From: Methanobacteriaceae archaeon
Lineage (GTDB): Archaea; Methanobacteriota; Methanobacteria; Methanobacteriales; Methanobacteriaceae
NCBI GenBank assembly: GCA_029219465.1
Contig: JAQXTL010000015.1
Span: 1-64,000, forward strand
Reading direction: 5' to 3'
Length of the DNA stretch: 64,000 nt
How positions within the stretch are numbered: the stretch's first letter is position 1; every line of letters starts with the position of its first letter. A model generated the notes under the pieces. The model was not told where the DNA came from and ran no database searches. It worked only from the letters and a program-made list of their open reading frames with translations. Made by a program: the position numbers and the translations under genes. This document shows positions 13,477-53,440 of this stretch, piece after piece.

Positions 13477-14490
13477 ATGATGATTTTACCACAAATTCCT
13501 TTATATGGGATAGCTTTAATCTGTGGATTACTATCTTTTTTTGTAACCAGATTAACTATGCCAAGGATGATTAGAAAGCTTGAAGCCGCGAATATTGTTG
13601 GGAAAGATATTCACAAATCCTGGAAACCTATTGTTGCGGAAATGGGTGGATTTGGTATTCTTTTCGGGTTTATTATAGGAATGTTTTCTGGAATATATAT
13701 GCACGATATTCTAGCATTCAAATTAGTTATTGTTTTAGTAGTAATATTGATTGTTGGAATAATCGGTATTGCTGATGATTTACTTGCTCTATCTTCAAAA
13801 GAGAAGTTTATTTTACTTTTCCTTGCAGGTCTTCCATTGATTTGGGCAGCACCACCTAATGTGGGAATATTATACTTAATTACAATTCCTATTGCATTAT
13901 CTATTGGTTCTAATTTAACCAATATGCTTGCTGGTTTAAATGGTATTGAATCAGGTTTAGGTATTATTTCAATGACTTCACTTACCATTGCATGTATTAT
14001 TCTTGGAAAATACGATGTAACTATCATTTCCATGAGTATGCTTGGTGCATTAATCGCATTTTTATACTACAACAAATATCCTGCTAAGATTTTCCCAGGA
14101 GATACTGGTACATTAATTATTGGTGCAGCTATTGTTTGTATTGCGTTTATTGGACGTGTAAAGCTTATTGCATTTATTGTATTGATGCCAAATATCATTG
14201 ATGCTGCTTTAAAATTCTATTCTGCAGGATTTATGAACCGTCAACAGCAAAAACCAACTCAATTAAACGAAGATGGTAAATTAGTAAGACCAGATGCTGG
14301 TTTTAAATCAATGATCAGGTTAATTTTAAGAAAACCTATTGCAGAAAAAGATGCTGTTAGAATAATCTGGGCTATTGGAGTAGTATTTGGAATTATTGGT
14401 ATTCTTGTAGCATTAATAATGCCTGGTGCACTTGAAAACCAGACTTTAGTTAACTTCTTACAGATTAAAGAGATGTTTTATTATATTTAG
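13477..14490 (+). CDS. MraY/GPT-family sugar-phosphate polyprenyl transferase
   Basis: An integral membrane glycosyltransferase family 4 protein (337 residues, about ten membrane segments). It transfers a sugar-1-phosphate, probably GlcNAc- or a related amino-sugar phosphate, from UDP-sugar to a polyprenyl/dolichyl phosphate carrier. Family motifs are visible: ADDLLALSSKEKFIL (metal-binding Asp pair), NMLAGLNGIESGLG, and PAKIFPGDTGTL. The start could be 13477 or the next ATG at 13480. Whether it serves N-glycosylation (AglH-like) or pseudomurein precursor synthesis cannot be decided here. The next gene starts directly at its stop codon. Confidence 0.88.
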   Translation: MMILPQIPLYGIALICGLLSFFVTRLTMPRMIRKLEAANIVGKDIHKSWKPIVAEMGGFGILFGFIIGMFSGIYMHDILAFKLVIVLVVILIVGIIGIADDLLALSSKEKFILLFLAGLPLIWAAPPNVGILYLITIPIALSIGSNLTNMLAGLNGIESGLGIISMTSLTIACIILGKYDVTIISMSMLGALIAFLYYNKYPAKIFPGDTGTLIIGAAIVCIAFIGRVKLIAFIVLMPNIIDAALKFYSAGFMNRQQQKPTQLNEDGKLVRPDAGFKSMIRLILRKPIAEKDAVRIIWAIGVVFGIIGILVALIMPGALENQTLVNFLQIKEMFYYI

Positions 14491-20238: not shown

Positions 20239-22226
20239 ATGGATGATTATGGAAATTTAAAATTTGCAAGTCTCTTTCATGATATTGGTAAATTTTACCA
20301 AAGAACAAACAAATGCAATAATACTCATTGTGAATTGTCTGCGGCTTTTGTTAAAGACAAATTGATGATTTAGTTGAAAATTTAGTATTGTATCACCACA
20401 ATCCTTCTAAATCTATAAACCCCGAATTATGTGTAATACTTCAAAAAGCAGATTATCATTCATCAAAAGAATGTATTGGGCTTGATGATGAATCAGTGAT
20501 GCCTTTAACATCTATTTTTTCAAGAATCTCATTTGATGATGAAACTGGTGATGATCATTATGTTCCATTAGTTGAACTTGACTTTAATAAACCGTTACAT
20601 GCTCAAAATAAAGATGTTATGAGTGAATGGGATTTAGTTCAAAAATATGAAGATATATTGATTAAATTTGAAAAAGAATTTGAAAACTTAGAAAATAATG
20701 ATTTAGAAACTGTATTGGCTATTTTAAAAAAATACACATCAACAATTCCTGCTTCAACTCACTACTCTAAAAGTGATATTTCATTATATGATCATCTAAA
20801 AACAACCCTTGCTATTTCTAATTGCAGATATTTATTCTCAAAAGAAGAAAACTTAACTAAAAGCGATGATGAGGAAGTTTACAGAGTAATTAACGGTGAA
20901 CTTTCAGGTATTTCTGATGTTTTATATGACATTCAAACATGTGATAATGATATGGTTAAACGTTTGCGTGGCCGTTCTCTTTATTTAAATTTATTAACAG
21001 AAGCAGTTGCTTCTAGAATTATCTTTGATTTAAATTTAGACTCTTCAAACATCATATATTGCAGTGGAGGACGTTTTATAATCATTGCACCAAACATTAA
21101 AAAAACAGAAGAGATTATTAATAAAATCAGTTTATTTGAGGAATTTGGTGCAGATTTGTTCTTAAATATTGTTTCAAAACCTGCATGTGGAGATGAGCTT
21201 GGAGAATTTGATAAAGTATTATCAAGGCTTAATTTATTGTCTGATGAAAACAGAAAACATAAATTTACAAATCAAATCAATGAATTAATCACTAAAAACA
21301 ATTCCAATTCATTATCAGAATTTGATGAATCTAAAATAGGTGATGTGGCTGCAAATGCCAAATATTTAATTAAGTATATTTGTGATGAGAAAATTACAAA
21401 TTCACTATTCTATTCCAAATTAAACATTGGATACATATTTAAAAAAGATAAAAAAGGTATTGACAGCATTATATGTGAAAATAAAGATATTCAATTTACT
21501 GTTTATAAATTAAATGATACTGATTTTCTTGATATAGATATTGTATCTAATAATGTTTCATTTGACTTTAAAGTTATGGGAAACAGTGTTCCAAATATTG
21601 ATGGAAAACCATTGTTTCTTAATCATTTAGCCAAATTAGCAGATGGTGCAGATAAGATTGGAGTAGTAAAAATAGATGCTGATAACCTTGATTTGATCTT
21701 TTCAAAAGGTTTAGGTGAAGGTGCTAAAAGCATTTCCAGAATATCTTCTCTAAGTTTTTATATTGATTTATATCTCTCAGGTAGGGTTAATCAGGTTGCA
21801 AGCAGATTTAATTTCGCAACTGAACAGCCAAAAGACATAGAAAGTGAAATTATAGAACTTGAATTTAATGATTTAGATAAAAAAACAATTTTTAAACCAA
21901 AAGGAAAACTTCCAAAAGGCGAAGGTGTATCTTCAATATATGTTATTTACTCAGGTGAAGATGATTTACTTGCTGTAGGTCCATATGATGATGTAATTAA
22001 GTTTGCATTGGAGTTTAGAAATAAATTCAAAAAATGGGCAACGAATAATGATTTAATTAATCTTTCAGCAGGAATTGTAATTGTTAAACCAGAATTTTCA
22101 ATAGGAAAAGCAGCAATAATGGCTGATAGAGAACTTAAAATATCAAAAAGCAGTGGAAAAAATAAAATTACAATGTTTAATGAACCGTTAAGCTGGGAAG
22201 AATTTGAAAAGATATTTGACTTTTAA
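20239..22226 (+). pseudogene. csm1: Cas10/Csm1-like protein with HD and palm domains, split by a frameshift
   Basis: An orphan type III CRISPR large subunit. From the ATG at 20239 (AGGT upstream) the first 44 codons give FASLFHDIGKFYQR, the HD nuclease start of Csm1, and end at TAG 20371-20373. In the next frame, open from 20355, the protein continues QIDDLVENLVLYHHNPSKS, with the second HD histidines, to 22226. The reading frame therefore shifts between about 20352 and 20361, as if one base were missing. The rest has Palm 1 (GVVKIDADNLDLIFSKGLGE) and Palm 2 (YVIYSGEDDLLAVGP, where the usual GGDD is GEDD), then MADRELKISKSSGKNKI. No csm2-csm6 genes or repeat array are near. It may be a real pseudogene or carry a sequencing error. 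Family assignment is strong; activity is open. Confidence 0.85.
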
Positions 22227-29387: not shown

Positions 29388-29477
29388 AAAAACTTGCTCT
29401 TTTTTTATTATAAACAAATACTTTATTTAATTAAAAAAATATAATTATAAATATACAAATTTTTTATAGGTGTATTA

Positions 29478-30449
29478 ATGGATTTAAATGTAGGTGTTAT
29501 TGGAGCAGGCGCATTAGGTACTGCTATTTCTCAACAGATTAGTGAAAATATATCCGAGTTAATATTGCTTTTAAGAAACAAGGAGCTTTGTGATGATATT
29601 AATAATCTGGGATATAATACCCAATACTACCCTAATTCAAAATTAAATGACAATATTAAAGCTACCATTGACATTAATGATTTATCAAATTGTGATATTA
29701 TCTTTTTGGCAATACCATCATCTGCTTTTAGAAAAACTCTTGAAGATTTAAAACCTATTGTTAAAAAGGATGTTATTATAGTAACTACTGCTAAAGGAAT
29801 TGAATATCCTTCCCTAAAAACTATGGGTAAAATAATTGAAGAGTATTTTGATGATAATTATGTTGCATTGTCAGGACCAAATTTTGCATCAGAAATAATG
29901 CTTAATTTACCAACAGTAACCAATATTGCTTCCAAATCCTATGAAAACTCACTTAAAGTTAAAAAGGTGCTTACAACCAAACAGTTTAAAGTGAAAATCA
30001 TTGATGATATTTGCGGAATTGAACTTTGTGGTATTCTCAAAAACATCAATGCAATAGCTAACGGTATTTGTGAAGGTATGAATGTTAATGAAAATGCTCG
30101 TTTTGGTATTTTAACCAGAGGATTTAAGGATACAATAATGATTATTGAAGCTATGGGTGGTAAATCCGAAACAGTGCATGAATACTGTGGATTTGGAGAT
30201 TTAATTTTAACTTCAACATCACATGAAAGCAGAAACCATACTTTAGGAATATTATATGGTCAAAGATTAATCATTGATGAAAATGCAAGTGGTATTGTAT
30301 TTGAAGGTAAAAATTCAATTAAAGCTATAAAAGAGATTTGTTCAAACAACAACATCAGCAGTGGTACTGTAAACTTTGTATATGATGTAATTATTAAGAA
30401 AATAACTCCTACAAAAGCGTTTAATAAATTATGGGAAAATATTGAATAG
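29478..30449 (+). CDS. gpsA: NAD(P)H-dependent glycerol-3-phosphate dehydrogenase, GpsA type
   Basis: GpsA reduces dihydroxyacetone phosphate to sn-glycerol-3-phosphate. The Rossmann motif is VIGAGALGTAIS at residues 6-17. Family motifs VTTAKGIEY, VALSGPNFASE, LKNINAIANGICEGMN with the catalytic Lys, ILTRGF and GFGDLILTSTSHESRN are all present. The length of 323 residues is normal. This is notable because archaeal lipids use glycerol-1-phosphate, made by another enzyme. The gene is followed without gap by a LicC-like nucleotidyltransferase and two glycerophosphotransferases, so its product most likely feeds a wall polymer. Confidence 0.9.
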   Translation: MDLNVGVIGAGALGTAISQQISENISELILLLRNKELCDDINNLGYNTQYYPNSKLNDNIKATIDINDLSNCDIIFLAIPSSAFRKTLEDLKPIVKKDVIIVTTAKGIEYPSLKTMGKIIEEYFDDNYVALSGPNFASEIMLNLPTVTNIASKSYENSLKVKKVLTTKQFKVKIIDDICGIELCGILKNINAIANGICEGMNVNENARFGILTRGFKDTIMIIEAMGGKSETVHEYCGFGDLILTSTSHESRNHTLGILYGQRLIIDENASGIVFEGKNSIKAIKEICSNNNISSGTVNFVYDVIIKKITPTKAFNKLWENIE

Positions 30450-30458
30450 GTGATAATG

Positions 30459-31226
30459 ATGATTGGCGTAATTTTATCTGCAGGAATGGGAACAAGATTA
30501 AGACCTCTTACTGACGAAATTCCAAAACCTTTACTCGAGATTAATGACATGACATTACTTGAAAGAATGATTAAAAACTGTATGGGTGCTGGAATTCGCG
30601 AATTCATTTTAATTGTAGGTTATAAAAAGCAAAAAGTTTATGAAATCGCTCCTGAGTTTGAAGAAAAATTAGATATCTCAATTAAAATTGTAGAAAACAA
30701 TGAATACAACGAAACAAATACTTCCGTTTCAACATACATTGCAACTTCTTTAATTGAAAAAGAATGTTTGGATGATTTTATTTTAATAAACGGAGATAAT
30801 GTTGTAGATCCTGAAATCATTACAAGAGTTGCTGCTACAAAAAATACCAGTTTAATTGTTGATAACTTCAAACAACTAAATGAAGAATCATTTAAATTAA
30901 TTTTAGATGATGTAAAAACCAATGAAGATAACTCAATAGCTAACGGTATTATCTCTGAAATTGGAAAAGAAATTGATATCGCATTATCAACCGGAGAGTT
31001 TATTGGTGTTTCAAAAGTTGTTAAAAGTGATGTAGCTAGTTTTAATGAGATATTAGTTGATTTAATTGATGATGACAGGCAAAACTATTATGATTTTGCA
31101 TACAAAACCTTATCAAACAAAACAACTATCGATTATGTATTAACCAATGGTCTTAAATGGACTGAAATCGATGATTACAATGACTGGAAAATAGCTAATG
31201 AACTTGTTAGTGAATTTGAAAATTAA
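30459..31226 (+). CDS. LicC-like nucleotidyltransferase (sugar/choline/glycerol phosphate)
   Basis: A 255-residue nucleotidyltransferase with the signature ILSAGMGTRLRPLT followed by PKPLLEI, then LINGDNVVDPEI as the metal-binding Asp region and FIGVSKV. It activates a phosphorylated alcohol or sugar with CTP or another NTP. In the gpsA-tagF context, making CDP-glycerol is the simplest role, although this fold is not that of TagD; phosphocholine is the other common LicC substrate. The start at 30459 is set by GGTGAT at 30449-30454 overlapping the gpsA stop. Upstream GTG and ATG codons exist. Confidence 0.75.
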   Translation: MIGVILSAGMGTRLRPLTDEIPKPLLEINDMTLLERMIKNCMGAGIREFILIVGYKKQKVYEIAPEFEEKLDISIKIVENNEYNETNTSVSTYIATSLIEKECLDDFILINGDNVVDPEIITRVAATKNTSLIVDNFKQLNEESFKLILDDVKTNEDNSIANGIISEIGKEIDIALSTGEFIGVSKVVKSDVASFNEILVDLIDDDRQNYYDFAYKTLSNKTTIDYVLTNGLKWTEIDDYNDWKIANELVSEFEN

Positions 31227-31258
31227 TTTTAACCATTATTTATTGAAAATGTGATATA

Positions 31259-32956
31259 ATGGCCTTTAAAAACAAAATTAATAATTTAAAAGAGTGTTTA
31301 GAAAACAATACTCTTTATGATAATTATTATAAATGTGATATTGATGATGATATCATATATTTAGAGTCAAGAAACGGTCAGGATTTCACAGGAAACATTT
31401 TTAGAATAGTTGAAGAAATATCTAGTGGAGATTATGGTAATTTTAAGATATATGTCTATGCAACTGAAGATGTTAAAAGTAAAATTGAATTATTTCAAAA
31501 AAATTACAATTTAGACATATATAAAGTTATTAGTGATAAAAAAGAAGCTGTTAAAATATTGTTTAGAGCCAAATACATTTTTACTGACTCAAATATTCAA
31601 TATAAATTTATTAAAAAACCAGGACAAATTTTTGTTAATACATGGCACGGTACACCATTAAAACTTATGGGTTTTGATAATCCGTCAGAGAGATTATCTA
31701 TTGGAATAATTCAAAGAGCATTCTTTTTTAGTGATTATCTTTTATATCCAAATGATTTTATGATGGATAAGATGACTACTTCTTATATGATTGATAAGAT
31801 TTATCCTGGAAAAATTTTACTTGAAGGATATCCAAGAAACAGTGTTTTTCTAAATAAATCAACACTTAAAGACAAATTAGGATTATCTGATAAAGAAGTT
31901 TTCATTTATATGCCTACATATAAGGGAACTGTTGCCAATAGAAAAGATGAAAAGCAAAAAAGAGATGTTAATGCTTTTTTAAATAAATTGGATTTGAAAT
32001 TAAATGACAATCAGGTTTTGTTTGTTAAGTTTCATCCATTTAACCAGTCACAAATTGACTTTTCTTCATTTTCACATATTAAAGCATTTCCTGAAGGCTT
32101 TGAAAATTATGATGTTTTAAATACTGCTGATGTTCTTATTACTGATTATTCTAGTGTATTTTTTGATTTTGCAAATACTAAAAGAAAGATTATTCTTTTT
32201 AACTATGATGAGCAGGAATATTTAAAAGACCGTGGAATTTACATCCCTCTTGAGGATTTGCCTTTTCCTAAGGTTCAAAGTATTGATGATTTAATCCATG
32301 AGCTAAATACACCTAAAAATTATGATGACAGTGAATTTGTTAGCGAATTTTGCAAATATGAGTCAGTTGATAGTGTAAAACGTATATGTAACAGAGTACT
32401 TAACAATGAAAATGACAGCAAATATAAAATAATTGAAAATTCAAAAAAGAATATATTAATTTATGTTGGATCTATGGAAAATAATAAAGCATTAAATCAA
32501 CTTATTCAAATGCTTAGACAGTTAGATGAAAATGTTAATGTTTTCATTTCATATAAACCATGGAGCCAAAACATAAAAGAAAACTATATGACAATATTTG
32601 AAGATTTCCCAGACAATATTGAATTTTTACCATTGAGCTTTAACATAGCCCCATCATTAAATGAAAAAATTGATTTGAATAAATTTATTAAAAAAGACAA
32701 TAAAAATATTGGTGAAAAACTAATAAATTTATTTAAACGTTCATACAAAAGACAATATGGAGATTTTCAATTTGATTTAGTATTGGATTTTCTAAGTAAT
32801 GACTTTGAACAATCCTTATTATTCGCCCATTCAGGCTTAAAAAACGCAATAGTAATTGACAAAAATACTAAAACTAAAGCTTATACACAATTTAGTGAAA
32901 TTTACGAAATATCAGAAGTTAACTTAAAAGAAATTATATATGGTGAGAATAAATGA
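31259..32956 (+). CDS. CDP-glycerol glycerophosphotransferase (TagB/TagF-like)
   Basis: A 565-residue protein whose central part (about residues 110-400) is a Glyphos_transf domain. Diagnostic motifs are NTWHGTPLKLMG, LLEGYPRNSVFL, FIYMPTYKGT, FVKFHPFNQS and LITDYSSVFFDFANTKR. By family it transfers glycerol phosphate from CDP-glycerol to a primer or growing chain at the cytoplasmic face of the membrane. The last ~150 residues are an extra alpha/beta region without a clear name (ILIYVGSMENNKALNQLI). It overlaps the next gene by four bases. GTGATATAATG gives the ribosome binding site and start. Confidence 0.88.
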   Translation: MAFKNKINNLKECLENNTLYDNYYKCDIDDDIIYLESRNGQDFTGNIFRIVEEISSGDYGNFKIYVYATEDVKSKIELFQKNYNLDIYKVISDKKEAVKILFRAKYIFTDSNIQYKFIKKPGQIFVNTWHGTPLKLMGFDNPSERLSIGIIQRAFFFSDYLLYPNDFMMDKMTTSYMIDKIYPGKILLEGYPRNSVFLNKSTLKDKLGLSDKEVFIYMPTYKGTVANRKDEKQKRDVNAFLNKLDLKLNDNQVLFVKFHPFNQSQIDFSSFSHIKAFPEGFENYDVLNTADVLITDYSSVFFDFANTKRKIILFNYDEQEYLKDRGIYIPLEDLPFPKVQSIDDLIHELNTPKNYDDSEFVSEFCKYESVDSVKRICNRVLNNENDSKYKIIENSKKNILIYVGSMENNKALNQLIQMLRQLDENVNVFISYKPWSQNIKENYMTIFEDFPDNIEFLPLSFNIAPSLNEKIDLNKFIKKDNKNIGEKLINLFKRSYKRQYGDFQFDLVLDFLSNDFEQSLLFAHSGLKNAIVIDKNTKTKAYTQFSEIYEISEVNLKEIIYGENK

Positions 32957-35136
32957 CCTTTATAAGTATTATCATCCCATTTAACAGTGCTCAAAGATAT
33001 CTAAGAGACTGTTTAGACAGTATCAGTGAAGAAAAATTAGATGATGCTGAAATCATATTAATATCAAATGGAATAGATGAACCACTTGATGAATTTTTAG
33101 AAGACTACGAGGATTTAAACATAAAAAGAATTGATTTTAAAGACAATATTGGTGTTGCTCGAGCACGTAATATTGGAATTGAAAATGCACAGGGAGAATA
33201 TGTTTATTTCATAGACTGTGATGATTATGTTGATAAAGATTCATTAAATAAACTTATCCAAGCTGCTAAAAGCACTAAAGCAGATTTTGTTAATGGAGAA
33301 CGTATAACTACTCCATATATCAGAAGCAGATTTAATGAAGAACTTGAAAAACCACACGCTGTACCTCATAAAAAAGGTGATTTAAGCGATATGGAATATT
33401 CATTATTACTTCTTGCAAGAGATAAAACCAAAAAACACGAATTTATGTCCTGTTTACATGCTTTAATCAAAAAAGATAAAATTTCAGATATCAGATTTGA
33501 CGAAACTCAAAGATATTTCACAGATTATTACTTTATGATTGATGTTTTGGAAAATATTGAATCATTTTATGGTGTTGAAGGTGCATGGTATGCTAAAAGA
33601 CACAGAGATGATCCAATAAACTTAACTTCTCTAAGCCAGGAACTTAAAGATGAGAAGTTCGTATTGTATTTTGACCAATATTTCAAAGTGAAAGACATAT
33701 TAGCTAAAAAACAAGAAAAAAAATTTAAAATACTCTCAAAACATATCACAATAGCATTATACAAATATTACTACTATAGATATTCCTTATTATTCTTAAA
33801 TAATAAAAAAGAATGTATTAGGACAGTCTATTTTGATAAAATGTGTGAAATTTCAAAAGACTTCGATGAATTGGTAAACTGGAAAAGTAAAAGAGAAGTC
33901 AAAGCACTACAATCAAAAGATATGGTAAAATATGAAAAATTGCTTAGATTCCGTTACGGTTATGTTCAAACCAAAAAAATCATGAAAAAACCGTCAAAAT
34001 TGAATTTATGGTTTTATAATGAAGTTTATAATAAAAAACCAACTCAAGATAACAAGATAATATTTATCAGTTTTGGAGGTAAATACTACTCAGACAGTCC
34101 AAAATACTTATATGAATATTTATACAACAATTATGGGGATAAATTTGAATATGTATGGGTTATTAATGATCCGACCGTTGAAATTCCTGGAAATCCAAAG
34201 AAAGTAAAAAGATATTCCCGCGAATACTACAAAGAAGTTGCACAATCAAAATATTGGGTAACCAACGGAAGACATCCTGAAAGATTAAGGAAAAAAGAAG
34301 ACCAGGTTATTGTATCCACATGGCACGGTACTCCTCTTAAAAGATTAGGATTGGATATTGGAGATATCTACACTAAAAACCCTAGAATTAAAGAATCATA
34401 TATTAAAAATGGTGAAGAATGGGATTATTTAATTTCTCCAAACCGTTACACAACAAATATTTTGAAAAGCTGTTTTGCATATCCACGTGACATTTTAGAA
34501 AGTGGATATCCAAGAAACGATATCTTATATAATGCTACTGACAGCCAGGTTAATCAGATAAAAGAGAATTTAAGCATTCCTAATGATAAAAAAATCATTC
34601 TTTATGCTCCAACATGGAGAGATGATGAGTTTTATGATACTGGATCTATTAAATTTACATTAAAACTTGAATTGGATAAATTAAAAGAAGCTATTAGTGA
34701 TGAATATATTGTACTAGTTAGAACACATTATTTCATTTCAAATAATCTTGATTTAACACCATATGAAGGCTTTGCTTTTGATGTAAGTAGCTACAATGAT
34801 ATTGCAGAATTATATTTAATCAGTGATATGTTAATTACCGATTATTCCAGTGTATTTTTCGATTTTGCAAACCTTAAAAGACCAATTTTATACTACACTT
34901 ATGATTTGGACAAATATGAAGGTATGCTTAGAGGATTCTACATAGATATTCACGAAGAAGTCCCAGGACCATTATTATTTACAACCGAAGAGGTAATTGA
35001 TAGTATCAAAAATATTGATGAAATTAATGATAAGTACAAAGAAAAATATGATAAATTTTATGAAACCTACTGTAATGTTGATGATGGAAATGCATCAAAA
35101 AGAATAGTAGAGGCAGTTTGGAAAAATAATTTATAA
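32953..35136 (+). CDS. Fusion of family 2 glycosyltransferase and CDP-glycerol glycerophosphotransferase
   Basis: A 727-residue bifunctional protein. Residues 1-~300 are a GT-A family 2 glycosyltransferase: ISIIIPFNSAQRYLRDCLDS, IGVARARNIGIENAQG and FIDCDDYVD (DxD-type). Residues ~360-727 are a Glyphos_transf domain with STWHGTPLKRLG, ESGYPRNDIL, LYAPTWRDDEF, VLVRTHYF and LITDYSSVFFDFAN. This layout is known from bacterial TagF-type/capsule enzymes and fits synthesis of a glycosylated poly(glycerol phosphate). The ATG overlaps the preceding gene's stop (ATGA). Confidence 0.88.
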   Translation: MTFISIIIPFNSAQRYLRDCLDSISEEKLDDAEIILISNGIDEPLDEFLEDYEDLNIKRIDFKDNIGVARARNIGIENAQGEYVYFIDCDDYVDKDSLNKLIQAAKSTKADFVNGERITTPYIRSRFNEELEKPHAVPHKKGDLSDMEYSLLLLARDKTKKHEFMSCLHALIKKDKISDIRFDETQRYFTDYYFMIDVLENIESFYGVEGAWYAKRHRDDPINLTSLSQELKDEKFVLYFDQYFKVKDILAKKQEKKFKILSKHITIALYKYYYYRYSLLFLNNKKECIRTVYFDKMCEISKDFDELVNWKSKREVKALQSKDMVKYEKLLRFRYGYVQTKKIMKKPSKLNLWFYNEVYNKKPTQDNKIIFISFGGKYYSDSPKYLYEYLYNNYGDKFEYVWVINDPTVEIPGNPKKVKRYSREYYKEVAQSKYWVTNGRHPERLRKKEDQVIVSTWHGTPLKRLGLDIGDIYTKNPRIKESYIKNGEEWDYLISPNRYTTNILKSCFAYPRDILESGYPRNDILYNATDSQVNQIKENLSIPNDKKIILYAPTWRDDEFYDTGSIKFTLKLELDKLKEAISDEYIVLVRTHYFISNNLDLTPYEGFAFDVSSYNDIAELYLISDMLITDYSSVFFDFANLKRPILYYTYDLDKYEGMLRGFYIDIHEEVPGPLLFTTEEVIDSIKNIDEINDKYKEKYDKFYETYCNVDDGNASKRIVEAVWKNNL

Positions 35137-35178: not shown

Positions 35179-35607
35179 ATGTATAAAAAAATTTTACTCC
35201 CAACCGATGGGTCAGGATATGCTAATCAGGAAATCGATAGAGTAACTAAATTAATTGCAGATGATGGAGAAATCATAATCTTATCAGTTGCTGGAAAATT
35301 AAGTCCTAATGCATTCCAACGCAGAAAACATGTTAAAGAAGTAAATGAAGGCATGTATGATGAAGCTAAAGAAAATGCAGAACTAATGGCAAAAGAATTC
35401 CCTGAAGGATACAATATTAAAACCATGGTAAAAACCGGTTTTCCTGCTGAAACAATTAATAAAGTCGCTGAAGAAGAAGGCGTTGAATTAATTGTTATTT
35501 CTGCTTCAGGTAAAAGCGGACTTCACAAATTCATCATTGGAAGTGTAGCTGAAAAAGTTTTAAAAACTTCCGAAATCGATGTTTTATTAGTTCACAATAC
35601 TGATTAA
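35179..35607 (+). CDS. Universal stress protein family
   Basis: A 142-residue UspA-domain protein. It opens ILLPTDGSGYANQEIDR and has the ATP-binding loop signature SASGKSGLHKFIIGSVAEKV (G-x2-G-x9-G-S), so it is of the nucleotide-binding type. Cytoplasmic; exact role unknown as for most Usp proteins. AAAGGTG precedes the ATG. It ends nine bases before the next gene. Confidence 0.92.
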   Translation: MYKKILLPTDGSGYANQEIDRVTKLIADDGEIIILSVAGKLSPNAFQRRKHVKEVNEGMYDEAKENAELMAKEFPEGYNIKTMVKTGFPAETINKVAEEEGVELIVISASGKSGLHKFIIGSVAEKVLKTSEIDVLLVHNTD

Positions 35608-35616
35608 GGAGTAAGT

Positions 35617-36003
35617 ATGAATTCAAGAAACATAATTATTTCCATTATCATAATAATTTTGGTTCTTGGAGGTATTTTTGTATATATTTCAGCAAATACA
35701 CAGGAAACAAAAATAGCATTTGTTTCAAATACCACCGTTCAAAATGGAGATAATCTTACAATCCAACTTAAAGGACTATATAAAAACGCTATTCCAGATC
35801 AAGAAATTAATTTAAAAATATTAGATGATTCTGGATGGGCGCACAAGTATAATGTAACCACTAATGAAACCGGTGAAGGTAGTATTCAAATTTTAGGATT
35901 TGATAATGGAAACTACACTTTACATGCAGATTATAACGGTACATTATTCTTAAAAGAATCACATCAAAGATTCCCATTTACTATTGATGATGGATATTCA
36001 TAA
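35617..36003 (+). CDS. Membrane-anchored small surface protein with Ig-like domain
   Basis: A 128-residue protein with an N-terminal membrane anchor (IIISIIIIILVLGGIFVYI) and one extracellular Ig-like beta domain (TTVQNGDNLTIQLKGL, PDQEINLKILDDSG, GNYTLHADYNGTLFL). It resembles a shortened form of the 18578 protein and the repeat modules of methanogen adhesins. A strong AAGGAG ribosome binding site lies just upstream. Probably co-transcribed with the Usp gene. Confidence 0.78.
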   Translation: MNSRNIIISIIIIILVLGGIFVYISANTQETKIAFVSNTTVQNGDNLTIQLKGLYKNAIPDQEINLKILDDSGWAHKYNVTTNETGEGSIQILGFDNGNYTLHADYNGTLFLKESHQRFPFTIDDGYS

Positions 36004-36141: not shown

Positions 36142-37299
36142 ATGGCTTTAGTTTCTGTTATAATTCCAATATTTAATGTTGAGAATTATTTGAAAAAATG
36201 TTTAAAAAGCATTATAAATCAAACATTGAAAGATATTGAGATAATTTGTATAAATGATGGATCTAGTGACAGTTCTCTTAACATATTAAATGATTTTGCT
36301 AGTAGTGATGAAAGAATAATTGTATTGTCACAAAAAAATCACGGACCTGCAAAAAGTAGAAATGAAGGTTTAAAAATAGCTAAAGGCAAATATATCTTTT
36401 TTGTTGATTCAGATGACTATATTCAAGATTATACTTTAGAAAAGCTATATGAAAATGCAAAAAATAATGATTCTGATATTGTAATGTTTAAAATGTCCGA
36501 ATTTATCCGTGAAGATGAATTACTTCAAACAAATAGATTTAATCTTGATGAAGTGTTTGAAGATACTGATTTTAACAATTTCACATTCACATATAAAGAT
36601 ATTAAACCATATGTTTTAAATAATAGCTTTTCTGCTTGCTCTAAATTCTATAAAAAGAGTTTTTTAGATAGTTATGATGATTTTACATTTCCTGAAAACT
36701 TGATATTTGAAGATGTTCCATTTCATGTTAAATCTTTAATTAGATCATCCAAAATATCATTCGTTAGCGATTATCTTTATAATTACCGTGTGTCAAATTC
36801 AAACTCCATTATGCATTCTGATAAAAACAGAAATGACATATTTAAGATATGTAACCTTGTAGAAAATGATTTGAAAAATGAAGACTGTTTTGAAGAGTTT
36901 GAAAGAGAATTTAGTGAGCTTAAAACAAATCAGATTTATCATTATGCAATGCAGGCTAAATCAGAAGACTATTTAAAGACTGCTAAAGAAGAAATTAGTA
37001 AATTAGATTTAGATAAACTTTCAAACAGATTATTTAGTAAAGCTAATGTAATTTTAGAGTGTGAAGATATTGCTGATTTTATTGTTAAAAAATATGAACT
37101 TGAAATAAGTGAATTAAAAAGTGCAAATGAAATCATAATAGAAAAAAACAAAAAACTTAAACAAAAAAATGCAAAACTAAAAGATAAGAACTCTAAATTA
37201 AAAGAGAAAAATAAAATTTTATCTGATAAAAATGAAGAGATATTATCTTCTAGAAGTTGGAAAATAACCAAGCCACTTAGAAAAATAAAAAAAAGGTGA
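36142..37299 (+). CDS. Family 2 glycosyltransferase with C-terminal coiled coil
   Basis: A 385-residue GT-A glycosyltransferase: VSVIIPIFNVENYLKKCLKS, INDGSSDSSLNIL, GPAKSRNEGLKIAKG and FVDSDDYIQ (DxD). After ~320 residues comes a strongly charged Lys-rich coiled coil with repeats like KLKxKN, then the end RSWKITKPLRKIKK. The same SWK-x-T-x-PLRK tail is on the genes at 40961 and 42370, so it may be a common docking or membrane-association tail. No membrane segment is seen. It probably builds a surface polysaccharide. GGTGA precedes the ATG. Confidence 0.87.
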   Translation: MALVSVIIPIFNVENYLKKCLKSIINQTLKDIEIICINDGSSDSSLNILNDFASSDERIIVLSQKNHGPAKSRNEGLKIAKGKYIFFVDSDDYIQDYTLEKLYENAKNNDSDIVMFKMSEFIREDELLQTNRFNLDEVFEDTDFNNFTFTYKDIKPYVLNNSFSACSKFYKKSFLDSYDDFTFPENLIFEDVPFHVKSLIRSSKISFVSDYLYNYRVSNSNSIMHSDKNRNDIFKICNLVENDLKNEDCFEEFEREFSELKTNQIYHYAMQAKSEDYLKTAKEEISKLDLDKLSNRLFSKANVILECEDIADFIVKKYELEISELKSANEIIIEKNKKLKQKNAKLKDKNSKLKEKNKILSDKNEEILSSRSWKITKPLRKIKKR

Positions 37300-37303
37300 T
37301 TGA

Positions 37304-38446
37304 TTGAGTATAGATAAACCTGCTGTTAGTATTATAATTCCTGTATATAATACTGAAGAATATCTTGAGGAATGTTTGGATAGTGTATTGAATCAGACAT
37401 TAAAAGATATTGAAATTATTTGTATTGATGACAAGTCCAGTGACAAATCACTTGATATATTATTGGAATATGCAAAAAAAGACAATAGATTAAAATTAAT
37501 ACAGCACAAGGAAAATAAAGGCCAGTCAATTGCAAGAAATACTGCACTTAAACAGGTAAATGGTGAATATATCTCATTTTTAGATAGTGATGATAAACTT
37601 GATCTTGATGCATATGAAAAACTTTATGACTTTACAAAGGACACTAAACAGGATGTAATATTATATAATATTGTTAGATTTAATGAAAAAAAGGTCCAGG
37701 AAAGTGAATTACATATTAAATCAGAAAATAATATTAAAAAAACTAATCTTTTAGAAAATCCTGATTTAATATATGATACAGTATGTAATAAATTCATTAA
37801 AACTAGTTTTTTGGTTGAAAATGATCTTGAATTTGTAGATAAATTATATGAAGATATACTCTTTTCAATGCAGATACTAACAAAAACAAAATCAATTGGT
37901 GTGTATAACGACACTAATTATTACTGGAGAAAGCGTAAAAACACAAATAAGTCAGTTACACAAAAAAGAACTGATATTAAAAACATCAAAGACCGCATAT
38001 TCATAATAAAAGAAGTAATTAGCTTATTCGAGAATAGTGAATATAACTTCATTATGGATAATTTATATAAAAAATTACTTGAGATTGACTTTAGATTATA
38101 TATAAATCAAATTGACAGAGCTAATGATGAATATAAAAAGATAATCATTGATGAAATGCTTCCTATATTAAAAACAATTCCTGATAATGTCTTTGAAAAC
38201 TTAAATTCACTTGAAAAAATCAAATATGATTTACTGTTAAGTGAAAAAATAGATGAATTGGAATATCTCACATCTAAACAAAGAGAACATAAAAAACTAA
38301 AAAAACAGAACTCTAAATTAACTAAAAAGACTAAAAAACAAAAAGATAAGAATAAAAAGTTAAAAAAGGAAATTAAAGTCTTAAAATCAACAAAAGGTTG
38401 GATTAAATATAAATTGAATAATATTTACAACAGACTATTTAAATAA
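37304..38446 (+). CDS. Family 2 glycosyltransferase with basic coiled-coil tail
   Basis: A 380-residue glycosyltransferase close in layout to its upstream neighbour: VSIIIPVYNTEEYLEECLDS, IDDKSSDKSLDIL, GQSIARNTALKQVNGEYISF and LDSDDKL. The C-terminal ~60 residues are a Lys-rich coiled coil followed by a short variant tail (STKGWIKYKLNNIYN). The start is TTG at 37304, after GGTGAT at 37295-37300 which overlaps the upstream stop; the GGTGAT-TGA-start spacing matches that at 40961. The two genes are translationally coupled and likely act on the same glycan. Confidence 0.85.
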   Translation: MSIDKPAVSIIIPVYNTEEYLEECLDSVLNQTLKDIEIICIDDKSSDKSLDILLEYAKKDNRLKLIQHKENKGQSIARNTALKQVNGEYISFLDSDDKLDLDAYEKLYDFTKDTKQDVILYNIVRFNEKKVQESELHIKSENNIKKTNLLENPDLIYDTVCNKFIKTSFLVENDLEFVDKLYEDILFSMQILTKTKSIGVYNDTNYYWRKRKNTNKSVTQKRTDIKNIKDRIFIIKEVISLFENSEYNFIMDNLYKKLLEIDFRLYINQIDRANDEYKKIIIDEMLPILKTIPDNVFENLNSLEKIKYDLLLSEKIDELEYLTSKQREHKKLKKQNSKLTKKTKKQKDKNKKLKKEIKVLKSTKGWIKYKLNNIYNRLFK

Positions 38447-40960: not shown

Positions 40961-42346
40961 ATGGACAAACAGGTAGATACATTAGTTATTTCTTTTAAAT
41001 TTCCACCAACAATTGATACTAGCGGAATTGTTGCTGCAAAAAGAATTATCAAAAACAATTCAATTGTAGATGTTTTACATAATATGGATGAAGATGATAC
41101 TTCTTTAAATTTTAAAGGATTAGATGAACTTATTAACGAAAGATTAACCACAAATATTAAAGGATCCTGTAGTACCATAAAAAATATGACTAAATTTACT
41201 AATCAGGGTATGAAATTGATTGATGATAAAGAATATAAAAATCTTTACACTAGGACATGGTGTATGGCGAATAATTTCCTTGCAATGGAATATAAGTTTA
41301 ATAATCCTGATGTTTGCTGGACAGCTGAATTTTCAGATCCTATCTTAATTAACATCCATGGGGAAAAAAGAATAACACCTATAGAAAATGAAGAGTTTAT
41401 TAATAGAGTTAATTTAAACATAGACAAATTCAATGAAATTAATGATACTAATCTTAATCATATAAAAAATGAAGCAAATATATATTATCTTGCTGAATTA
41501 TTAACATTTATCTTTTCAGATAAGTTAATTTTTACAAATGAAAATCAAAGAAAAGTAATGCTTGAACATCACAGCGAAGAAATCTGTGAAATGGTTATGA
41601 ATAAATCCACAATTAGTCATCATCCAACACTTGATTCTGAATATTATCATTTAGTTGAAACCAATCCAGATTTAAATGATGATGAAATTAATATTGCTTA
41701 TTTTGGAAATTTCTATTACACAAAAAGACATTTTGAAGCAATATTTTTTGCATTTGATTCATTAAACCATAAATATAAAGATAAAATCAAATTCCATTTA
41801 TTCTTAAACAAAAGTAAATATTTCGATAGATTAATTGAAGAATTAGAAATTAAAGAAAATATAATTATAAAAGAACCTATTGATTACTTTGAATTTTTAA
41901 ATTCAACATCAAAATATGATATTCTACTTATCAATGATACAATAACTGAAGGTTGTTTTAGTGTTAATCCATACTTACCTTCCAAATTTTCAGATTATAA
42001 AGGCTCTGGCAGTGATATTTGGGCAATTTATGAACAAAACAGTACATTATCAACAATGGATTTTAAATATAAATCTTCAATGACCAGTTATAAACAATCA
42101 AGAGATGTTTTAGTTGATATATTAAATGAATATGGATATAGTGATGAAGATTGCTCTTTTAGCGATAATTACTATGAACAAAGGATTACTCAATTAAATA
42201 AAATAATTGATGAACAAAATACCAAAATTAAAAGGCAGAAAAAGACCATAAAGAAATTAAAAAAATTAAATAAGAAAATAATGAAATCCAAAAGCTGGAA
42301 AATTACAAAACCACTTAGAAAAGGTATTTCATTATTTAAAAAATAG
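40961..42346 (+). CDS. Glycosyltransferase-like protein with coiled coil and SWKITKPLRK tail
   Basis: A 461-residue protein. The pattern VISFKFPPTIDTSGIVAAKR at the start, LIFTNENQRKVMLEHH in the middle, and INIAYFGNFYYTKRHFEAI with KIKFHLFLNK later fits a GT-B fold glycosyltransferase (group 1-like) that I cannot place in a named subfamily. The end is a Lys-rich coiled coil then SKSWKITKPLRKGISLF, the same tail as at 36142. GGTGATTGAATG is the start context. It likely belongs to the surface-glycan block. Confidence 0.7.
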   Translation: MDKQVDTLVISFKFPPTIDTSGIVAAKRIIKNNSIVDVLHNMDEDDTSLNFKGLDELINERLTTNIKGSCSTIKNMTKFTNQGMKLIDDKEYKNLYTRTWCMANNFLAMEYKFNNPDVCWTAEFSDPILINIHGEKRITPIENEEFINRVNLNIDKFNEINDTNLNHIKNEANIYYLAELLTFIFSDKLIFTNENQRKVMLEHHSEEICEMVMNKSTISHHPTLDSEYYHLVETNPDLNDDEINIAYFGNFYYTKRHFEAIFFAFDSLNHKYKDKIKFHLFLNKSKYFDRLIEELEIKENIIIKEPIDYFEFLNSTSKYDILLINDTITEGCFSVNPYLPSKFSDYKGSGSDIWAIYEQNSTLSTMDFKYKSSMTSYKQSRDVLVDILNEYGYSDEDCSFSDNYYEQRITQLNKIIDEQNTKIKRQKKTIKKLKKLNKKIMKSKSWKITKPLRKGISLFKK

Positions 42347-42369: not shown

Positions 42370-43394
42370 ATGTTAAAAAAATTAATGAAAAATACTATTC
42401 AATTAACAATTCCTGAAATAATTGAATATGATTTCCCAATGGATGAACCATTCTTTTTAAAGATTATTCATGAAGGCACAGCATATGAGTTTGTTATTAG
42501 ATTAAGCAGTGATAATGATAGATTAATCTGCTTTGGAAGTGGTGCTCATCCAAGAAATTCAAAAACAAGTAAAGGAGAATTAATTAAGCCTCCATATTTT
42601 GACCGCTGGTCATGGTATGAGTTTGTTGATGAATCAATTATTGCATATGCAGATCCTAGTTTTTATTATGATGATAGAATAACATTAGGTTGGTTTGTTG
42701 GAGACGAAACATGGTATTTGGAAGTTGTTGGTAATATCATTGATAATATTGCACAAAACAGAAAAATAGCTAATGAAAATATTCTCTTTTATGGAAGTTC
42801 AGGTGGAGGATTTGCTCAATTGGTCTTGCAACATTACTAAAAGGTTCTAAAACTATTGTAAACAACAGTAGTTTTTCAATAAGAGACATTACTGATTGGC
42901 ATTACGAGTATCTGCTTGGAATATTGAAAAATAAATTAAATCTTAGTGAAGAAGAACTCTTAGACAAATTAAAGCATAGAATTGATTTAATTGAACTTTT
43001 CAAATATAAAAACTATATTCCTGATATAACATATTATGTTAATTCATATTCAAAAGCAGATCTTGAAAGGTGCAATGGATTTGTTAATAATGTAATAAGC
43101 CTTCAAAAAGACAATACTCTTGATGTTCATTATTATTATGAAGAAGACCCTGAAAGTAAAGGTCATGGTCCAATGGATTTTGGAAAAACATTAAATACAA
43201 TTAAAACATTTAATAATCCTAAATATGAAGAAAGTATTGAGGAAAATAATATTCTAAAACAACGGGTAAAAGAACTCAAGAAAATAACTAAGAAAAATAA
43301 AAAACTTAAAAAACAGCTTAAACAAATTAAAAACTCAAAAAGCTGGAAATTAACCGAACCACTTAGAAAGCTTAAACAGCTATTAAAAAAATAA
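42370..43394 (+). pseudogene. Alpha/beta-hydrolase-like surface-glycan protein, split by a frameshift
   Basis: One gene in two frames. The first frame (from ATG 42370, strong GGAGG) encodes 156 residues ending at TAA 42838-42840. The nucleophile-elbow-like FYGSSGGGFAQL lies just before the break. In the next frame the protein continues LATLLKGSKTIVNNSS, giving a natural GFAQLVLATLLKGS join at about 42820-42827 if one base is restored. The second frame runs to 43394, ending in a Lys-rich coiled coil and KSWKLTEPLRKLKQLL. The G-x-S-x-G elbow suggests a hydrolase or acyl transferase acting with the neighbouring glycosyltransferases. It is either a pseudogene or a sequencing error. Confidence 0.8.
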
Positions 43395-52169: not shown

Positions 52170-52445
52170 ATGTATGTGATAGTAAGTCTTGATGTAAAAT
52201 TCAAAACAAATTTGGAAAAAATTGAAAGAATCATCGAATACTATGGTCTTCGAAAAATTCAAAACATATTATATGTAGGGGAGCTGGACAACAATGAAAG
52301 AAATTCACTGAAAGAAAGTATTGATAATGTCATAAAAGAATATGATAGTGTTTTGATACTTCCAGTATGTCAAAACTGCTATTTGAAAAAGGAAAGCTGT
52401 GGTCGAGAGATTAAATTTGATAATGAACTATTTAGGGTGTACTGA
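52170..52445 (+). CDS. cas2: CRISPR-associated Cas2
   Basis: A 91-residue Cas2-type ferredoxin-like protein, partner of Cas1 in spacer integration. MYVIVSLDVKFKTNLEKIER gives the first strand with the conserved Asp8, followed by YYGLRKIQNILYVGELDNNE, matching the Cas2 sequence pattern, and VLILPVCQNC for the last strand. The C-terminus has a CQNCYLKKESCG cysteine group that is not standard. Its stop overlaps the cas1 start by one base (TGATG), so they are co-translated. No CRISPR array or other cas gene is adjacent. Confidence 0.9.
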   Translation: MYVIVSLDVKFKTNLEKIERIIEYYGLRKIQNILYVGELDNNERNSLKESIDNVIKEYDSVLILPVCQNCYLKKESCGREIKFDNELFRVY

Positions 52446-53440
52446 TGAAACTAATAATCGATGGATACAATAAATCAATACATAAAAAGGATAACCGGCT
52501 TGCCATACATGAAAACTCTGAAATTATAGATTCAATTAAGGCAAGTGAAGTTAATGACATAACAATTGTTGGAAAAGGATACGTGACTTTTGATGCATTG
52601 AATTTAATAGCACAAAATAACATTAAACTGATAGCAATCAATCCAAGAGGACAATTAACCTACACATTGGAATCACCTGACTGGAGGAATGTAACATTAA
52701 GAAAACAACAATATCAACTGAGTGAAAATAAATTAGGTCTTGAAATTTCAAAAGAACTAATCAAATGTAAAATGAAAAATCAAAAAGCAACATTAACAAC
52801 ATTAAACAAAAACAAACAGCTAAAAAGAGTATTTAATTACAGATCAAAAATTGATGAAATAATAAAACAGATTGATGAATTAAGTTTAAATGGAGATAAT
52901 GAAAAACAGAGAATAAAAATCATGGGATTAGAAGGAAAAGCCTCAAATGAATATTGGATGGGTGTAAAATACTTCATTCCAAAAGAAATTGAATTTAGAA
53001 ATAGGACTAAACAGCCGACAGATTTATTGAATTCAATGCTGAATTATGGATATGCTATTCTTGCAAGTGAAATTACAAAAAGCATTTTAGTTAATGGTTT
53101 AGATCCATACTGTGGTTTCCTACACTTTGATATGGATAGAAGAACCAGCTTAACATTTGATCTAATTGAACCATTCAGGCAGCAAATAGTAGATAAGGCC
53201 GTTATAAGTTTAATCAATAGAAAACAAATCACTAATGATGATTTAGATAAAAGAAACAATACAATAAAACTAGAAGCTAGAAAACTAATCGTAAGTAAAA
53301 TTCTTGGAAAAATATTCTCAACAATAACATATAACGATGAAACTGTCAGTTATGAAGATTTAATTAGAAAACAAAGCAAGAATTTAGTTGATACATTATT
53401 GAATGGTACTGAATTTAATGGATTTTATTTAAGATGGTGA
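52445..53440 (+). CDS. cas1: CRISPR-associated Cas1 integrase
   Basis: A 331-residue Cas1. The N-terminal beta part (MKLIIDGYNKSIHKKDNRLA, VGKGYVTFDALNLIAQNNIK) is followed by the all-helical catalytic domain with MGLEGKASNEYWMGVKYFIP (catalytic Glu), GLDPYCGFLHFDMDRRTSLTF (catalytic His) and DLIEPFRQQIVDKAV (catalytic Asp). All three metal ligands are visible, so it should be active. Length is normal. The usual next genes (array, cas4, effector modules) are absent; after its stop comes an inverted repeat and then an unrelated hydrolase on the other strand. Confidence 0.93.
   Translation: MKLIIDGYNKSIHKKDNRLAIHENSEIIDSIKASEVNDITIVGKGYVTFDALNLIAQNNIKLIAINPRGQLTYTLESPDWRNVTLRKQQYQLSENKLGLEISKELIKCKMKNQKATLTTLNKNKQLKRVFNYRSKIDEIIKQIDELSLNGDNEKQRIKIMGLEGKASNEYWMGVKYFIPKEIEFRNRTKQPTDLLNSMLNYGYAILASEITKSILVNGLDPYCGFLHFDMDRRTSLTFDLIEPFRQQIVDKAVISLINRKQITNDDLDKRNNTIKLEARKLIVSKILGKIFSTITYNDETVSYEDLIRKQSKNLVDTLLNGTEFNGFYLRW

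Follow-up and report, generated by a model that had tools for sequence, protein, structure and literature searches.

What use would a methanogen have for an enantiomer of glycerol phosphate that its lipids do not contain? Glycerol-1-phosphate (G1P) is the enantiomer of archaeal lipids, whereas sn-glycerol-3-phosphate is its mirror image and is absent from them, and this mirror-image difference in lipids forms a partial divide between the two domains of life. The question is raised by a 64,000-nucleotide stretch of DNA from a Methanobacteriaceae archaeon (GenBank assembly GCA_029219465.1, contig JAQXTL010000015.1, positions 1 to 64,000; hereafter the window), in which a gene for a bacterial-type sn-glycerol-3-phosphate dehydrogenase, gpsA, heads a four-gene operon at 29478-35136 on the + strand. 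Among archaea GpsA is recorded only in Archaeoglobi and Methanobacteria, in gene contexts described as uninformative, and these scattered genes have so far been debated chiefly as a matter of lipids and gene transfer (PMC5059525). Based on the genes present, their intact active-site motifs, the conservation of their linkage and their phylogeny, we consider it likely that the operon serves the synthesis of a glycerol-phosphate-containing surface polymer in this pseudomurein-walled archaeon. Its genes lie head to tail, as follows:

29478 to 30449, + strand: gpsA, sn-glycerol-3-phosphate dehydrogenase (NAD(P)) of clade A1 (PF01210/PF07479/PF20618; NF000942; PDB 1z82).
30450 to 31226, + strand: LicC/COG1213-type nucleotidyltransferase (NTase), proposed CTP:glycerol-3-phosphate cytidylyltransferase (PF00483; from profile, fold and adjacency to gpsA).
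31259 to 32956, + strand: TagFa, a CDP-glycerol glycerophosphotransferase (CGPTase) domain at residues 25-381 plus a GT4 remnant; proposed priming or first-unit transferase (PF04464).
32953 to 35136, + strand: TagFb, predicted poly(glycerol phosphate) polymerase of the TagF type, including the usual GT-A-like region at its N terminus (PF04464; match to S. epidermidis TagF).

The four open reading frames lie where the preliminary description had placed them and are as tightly packed as it reported, with 0 bases between gpsA and the NTase gene, 32 bases between the NTase and TagFa genes and a 4-base overlap (ATGA) between TagFa and TagFb. Pfam and NCBIfam also agree with its identification of GpsA, a LicC-like nucleotidyltransferase and TagF-type enzymes. 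GpsA is matched over its full length by the N- and C-terminal domains of the family (NAD_Gly3P_dh_N/C, 3e-37 and 1e-35 in Pfam), exceeds the NCBIfam cut-off for NF000942 (265.6 against 257), and has the bacterial-type GpsA structures 1z82 (156 bits) and 3k96 as its nearest solved relatives. Its residues K106, K188-N189, D241 and R252-N253 align with human GPD1L, in an alignment that also contains the T. maritima enzyme, and are unchanged across 13 archaeal copies; we take K106, K188, N189, D241 and R252-N253 to have the catalytic roles of their counterparts in GPD1. The product of GpsA is predicted to be the sn-3 enantiomer of glycerol phosphate.

Gene context and co-occurrence across the order assign GpsA a concrete and testable role in making a surface polymer. 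Three GpsA groups were distinguished in the order, namely A1 (the window and 49 other genomes), A2 (19 genomes, including that of the window) and A3 (9 genomes from two other families). Of the 151 genomes sampled from the order, an A1 or A3 GpsA occurs together with the NTase in 58, both are absent from 91, and one each has GpsA only or the NTase only, which amounts to a co-occurrence of 58/59 against 1/92 (Fisher p 1e-39, in a count that ignores shared ancestry). The 62 copies of A1 or A3 gpsA have the NTase gene within 200 bases in 48 cases and within 12 kb in 8 more, always on the same strand, and on another contig in 5. By the same count, this arrangement of gpsA and NTase is far beyond chance. 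In several other genera of the family, gpsA and the NTase gene are followed by genes for one or two short TagF proteins, an order that probably represents the earlier state of the cluster within the family. In other families of the order NTase, gpsA and a Wzx-type flippase gene follow one another, and one or two TagF genes lie in the vicinity. In a tree of NTases, those from the family of the window are united in one long-stemmed clade (100/100), whereas those of the other families group elsewhere, with bacterial enzymes that are often TagF-linked; on this ground we rejected the idea that the pairing of gpsA with an NTase arose only once in the order.

The A2 copies of gpsA are not paired with an NTase of the window type, and several of those examined adjoin a TarI/IspD-like enzyme and LicD. 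The second gpsA of the window's genome (G000:C3, locus L021, 2927-10686) lies between genes for LicD and a TarI-like cytidylyltransferase (288 bits, cut-off 166). This locus, which has three LicD genes in total, also encodes an aminotransferase, an acyltransferase and a MocA-type oxidoreductase with a fused TagD-like domain, and is probably another locus for phospho-polyol decoration. CpsC, a member of the LicD family, helps to build the teichoic-acid-like linker of bacterial capsules (PMC11666461). GpsA is partnered with at least three cytidylyltransferase lineages, those being the NTase clade of the window, the NTase clade of the other families and the TarI-like enzyme of L021, and pairing that recurs in this way argues more strongly for a common product than one conserved operon could.

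The last two genes of the operon (TRANSFERASES) bear on the polymer itself. TagFb aligns over its whole length with S. epidermidis TagF (residues 3-724 on 3-716, 431 bits), and it is an ordinary TagF and not the GT2-TagF fusion that had been supposed. It has a Glyphos_transf domain (PF04464; 5e-121, 404 bits), is 50% identical to S. epidermidis TagF over 355 amino acids of the catalytic domain, and keeps both catalytic histidines (H444 and H584 in the latter enzyme) in a WHGTP motif from position 457 and an RTHY motif from position 590. TagFb is predicted to polymerise glycerol phosphate. TagFa, whose Glyphos_transf match is lower (4e-60, 204 bits) and whose H130 and H259 are invariant in the alignment, is a CGPTase with a shortened C-terminal part and has Cps3D (8qoy) as its closest solved relative. 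Some relatives of TagFa in Methanobrevibacter (loci L027 and L028) are CGPTase-GT4 fusions of 777-795 amino acids, and the GT4 donor half is missing from TagFa of the window, G004 and G010.

The operon resembles the type I wall teichoic acid systems (TagD/TagB/TagF) of B. subtilis 168 and S. epidermidis in its full-length TagF-type polymerase with two catalytic histidines and in glycerol-3-phosphate as the presumed precursor. It differs from them in its archaeal host with pseudomurein and G1P lipids, in a LicC-type NTase in place of TagD, in the presence of gpsA inside the operon, and in that no TagGH or wall ligase was recognised in the cluster. A refinement of our proposal, rather than a full rival to it, is that the product is a glycosyl-glycerol-phosphate copolymer or capsule and not a plain poly(glycerol phosphate) wall teichoic acid. 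The models here are the capsule polymerases Cps3D and Cps7D of Actinobacillus pleuropneumoniae, since the sequence of TagFa is nearest to Cps3D and the CGPTase-GT4 layout of some relatives in the genus resembles those polymerases, and GT2 genes lie downstream of the operon at 36142-38446. However, TagFa of the window is without the GT4 donor-binding half, TagFb is of the homopolymer type, and no Kdo-lipid or ABC capsule system was seen in the cluster. We regard a copolymer as possible but somewhat doubtful. TagF-like capsule polymerases take both enantiomers of glycerol phosphate in vitro, and therefore the handedness of the polymer would come from GpsA and the NTase.

The NTase belongs to the NTP_transferase family (PF00483, 1e-17 in Pfam), and its best profile matches among solved structures are LicC (1jyk, CTP:phosphocholine) and then PntC (6pd1, CTP:2-aminoethylphosphonate). 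LicC is also the top fold match of its AlphaFold model (pLDDT 95), but fold alone cannot fix the substrate because TM-scores are alike for many sugar nucleotidyltransferases. The NTase keeps the fold signature of the family (G-x-G-x-R, a Lys and the metal-binding Asp). By motif and position, its R16, K26, N90 and N114-G115-D116 correspond to R16, K26, N90 and N110-G111-D112 of Caulobacter CpgD, and its Asn90 and Ser/Thr-rich loop resemble the CpgD motif, the comparison with CpgD being with its description and not an alignment. CpgD is a CTP:phosphoglycerate enzyme whose N90 and N110 touch the glycerate part; it shows that the COG1213 fold is able to activate a three-carbon phosphate, and the closest structures to the NTase use CTP. 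With LicC and CpgD, both COG1213 cytidylyltransferases of small phosphorylated molecules, the NTase has in common the fold and the R16/K26/Asp signature, along with N90 and an N-G-D motif resembling the one described for CpgD, and it differs from them in being linked to gpsA and tagF and not to lic or ceramide genes. Two other identities were rejected: TagD (TIGR01518) has the CTP_transf_like fold (PF01467) and not that of PF00483, and for a sugar-1-phosphate enzyme the top NCBIfam match, Arch_glmU, is far under its cut-off and the Y-x-x-T-N-T-S loop is like that of the LicC type. TagD was not found above the curated cut-off of TIGR01518 in any of 61 genomes.

Could the NTase nevertheless activate another small phosphate, such as phosphocholine, phosphoethanolamine, glycerol-2-phosphate, phosphoglycerate or some other relative derived from the GpsA product, which the TagF-family enzymes would then use to decorate a polysaccharide? 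The phosphocholine enzyme LicC is its best neighbour in both sequence and fold, and the substrates of COG1213 members vary, including phosphocholine, phosphoglutamine, phosphosugars and phosphoglycerate. Fusions of the NTase to a HAD phosphatase, seen in Gastranaerophilales and Acetomicrobium relatives, hint at further processing of the substrate, and Gram-negative TagF-like polymerases are able to transfer hexose phosphate as well. Against this, 58 of 59 genomes pair the NTase with GpsA, an enzyme that yields glycerol-3-phosphate, two further cytidylyltransferase lineages are likewise GpsA-paired, and TagFb shares 50% identity with an established polymerase of poly(glycerol phosphate); a search of the genes next to the cluster recognised no choline kinase. 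Another substrate is in our judgement unlikely. Bacterial relatives of the NTase are frequently found beside TagF, and in two loci with GpsA too.

For a glycerol-phosphate polymer we propose the following route, in which every reaction and the substrate of the NTase are inferred, as are the sequence in which TagFa and TagFb act, the export of the polymer and its attachment to a wall or capsule. GpsA would reduce dihydroxyacetone phosphate (DHAP) to sn-glycerol-3-phosphate, and the NTase would convert this with CTP to CDP-glycerol, replacing TagD with an unrelated fold. TagFa may then place the first glycerol-phosphate unit or units on a lipid-linked acceptor, from which TagFb would polymerise poly(glycerol phosphate), and the whole route would run separately from the synthesis of G1P lipids. 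The acceptor might begin from a PF00953 enzyme such as that encoded at 13477-14490; this is the family of the TagO-type initiators, which is also used in other pathways, and the gene has no tie to the operon. The preliminary description had likewise read the cluster as a path from DHAP to polymer kept apart from the lipids. This proposed route is supported by the gpsA-NTase pairing, the second gpsA beside TarI-like and LicD genes, the CTP-using structures nearest to the NTase, and a full-length TagF with both histidines. We give about even chances to the wider claim that members of the Methanobacteriales assemble a surface polymer from glycerol phosphate of the bacterial handedness while their membranes are built from the archaeal enantiomer, by way of a new CTP:sn-glycerol-3-phosphate cytidylyltransferase of the LicC/COG1213 fold.

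Several observations weigh against this proposal. The cluster has no exporter, no wall ligase and no dedicated enzyme for a lipid-linked primer, so that its earlier characterization as complete-looking was too strong; TagA, the TagGH exporter and an LCP ligase were not recognised in the surroundings of the cluster, to which the search for them was confined. The gpsA-NTase pairs at loci L029 and L030 have no TagF within several kb. At L021 CDP-glycerol could arise by other means because of the TagD-like domain there, which scores 108-111 bits against a cut-off of 165. Our literature search found neither a COG1213 enzyme that uses glycerol-3-phosphate nor a chemical report of glycerol phosphate in Methanobrevibacter walls.

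The walls of M. ruminantium are reported to contain phosphate at teichoic-acid-like levels, and teichoic-acid-like genes were reported from it in 2010 (PMC2812497); glycerophosphotransferase genes are annotated in this species. The report on strain M1 describes like genes in a related archaeon with teichoic-like wall phosphate, and differs from the present account in that its main text mentions neither gpsA nor CDP-glycerol. What is new here is the link of gpsA to teichoic-like genes and the non-TagD, LicC-type cytidylyltransferase, for which we found no earlier report in a literature that was mostly non-subscription. If the proposal is true, it adds a CDP-glycerol-making enzyme of a different fold and defines an anionic surface polymer of gut methanogens, with possible relevance to host recognition, archaeal viruses and inhibitors that act on the wall.

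Where did these genes come from? Acquisition from gut bacteria had been suggested, and TagFb does group with Gram-positive TagF in a quick tree (SH-aLRT 92, moderate support, not starred), while the host genus, Methanobrevibacter, is a gut dweller. Nevertheless, a recent transfer of the whole operon from gut Firmicutes is very improbable. The archaeal GpsAs of groups A1, A2 and A3 form a single clade (100/95) in which the sole sampled bacterial member is one Gastranaerophilales copy, and the NTase clade has a stem of 1.33 and no close bacterial relative. Both clades are family-wide in Methanobacteriaceae, have long stems and are not nested in gut bacterial clades; TagFa falls in an archaeal clade in the quick tree. 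Codon use and GC content at third codon positions of all four genes are like those of neighbouring genes, and the same kind of cluster occurs in other families of the order. In scans of about 1,100 bacterial genomes, with only a few candidates scored per genome, best matches did not exceed 274 bits in 399 Bacillota, 297 Bacteroidota and 299 Pseudomonadota. A Firmicute donor for GpsA and the NTase was rejected by these trees and scans.

The suggestion of a bacterial source stays plausible for TagFb, which alone may be of Gram-positive origin. TagF polymerases were seemingly acquired more than once, because two other Methanobrevibacter lineages also group with Gram-positive TagF. A search for TagFb in 300 Bacillota at E<=1e-100 gave just two matches, at 43%, a weak result with at most three candidates scored per genome. 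In a Gastranaerophilales bacterium (loci L065, 5527-10549, and L122) TagF, Wzx, an NTase-HAD phosphatase fusion and GpsA are encoded in one cluster, and the GpsA of this cluster is sister to archaeal A3 and separate from the housekeeping GpsA of that bacterium, which suggests gene transfer between archaea and Gastranaerophilales.

Bacterial GpsA normally supplies phospholipid synthesis, and the enzyme might by analogy serve lipid or redox metabolism here (bacterial-type glycerolipids or a DHAP shuttle), its adjacency to tagF being incidental. We consider this highly improbable, as roughly every second genome sampled in the order lacks GpsA and yet requires membranes, GpsA co-varies with the NTase, and a G1P dehydrogenase, but no GlpA/GlpD or GlpK, is listed for Methanobacteria (PMC5059525). 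If the surface-polymer proposal is true, archaeal GpsA in Methanobacteriales is explained by wall or capsule synthesis and not by lipids.

Three further features adjoin the operon:

29430 to 29477, + strand: putative leader of gpsA, AT-rich with a TATA-like stretch and an AGGTG ribosome-binding site (predicted from sequence only).
35179 to 35607, + strand: universal stress protein gene, a recurring neighbour of the cluster (PF00582).
35617 to 36003, + strand: small membrane-anchored protein with an extracellular region that looks Ig-like (N-terminal hydrophobic segment; no Pfam match).

The last two genes recur together in 7 of 11 related loci. To judge from the nucleotide sequence, the true start of the NTase is probably the ATG 6-9 bases past the gpsA stop, behind GGTGAT. 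RNA elements and tRNAs were not found in the window. A solitary cas1-like gene (PF01867, 241 bits) lies at 52445-53440, and the few kb around it yielded no CRISPR array. A solitary Cas10/Csm1-like gene (PF22335, PF18211) lies at 20388-22226, followed by a helicase and an AAA ATPase, and no other type III genes were recognised alongside. Three proteins of surface-polysaccharide type (36142-37299, 40961-42346 and 42924-43394) share a C-terminal coiled coil and a common tail, S-(K/R)-S-W-K-(I/L)-T-(K/E)-P-L-R-K. The gene at 42370-43394 is apparently interrupted by a frame change around 42840, giving two 156-amino-acid open reading frames that continue in another frame, and is either a pseudogene or the result of a sequence error.

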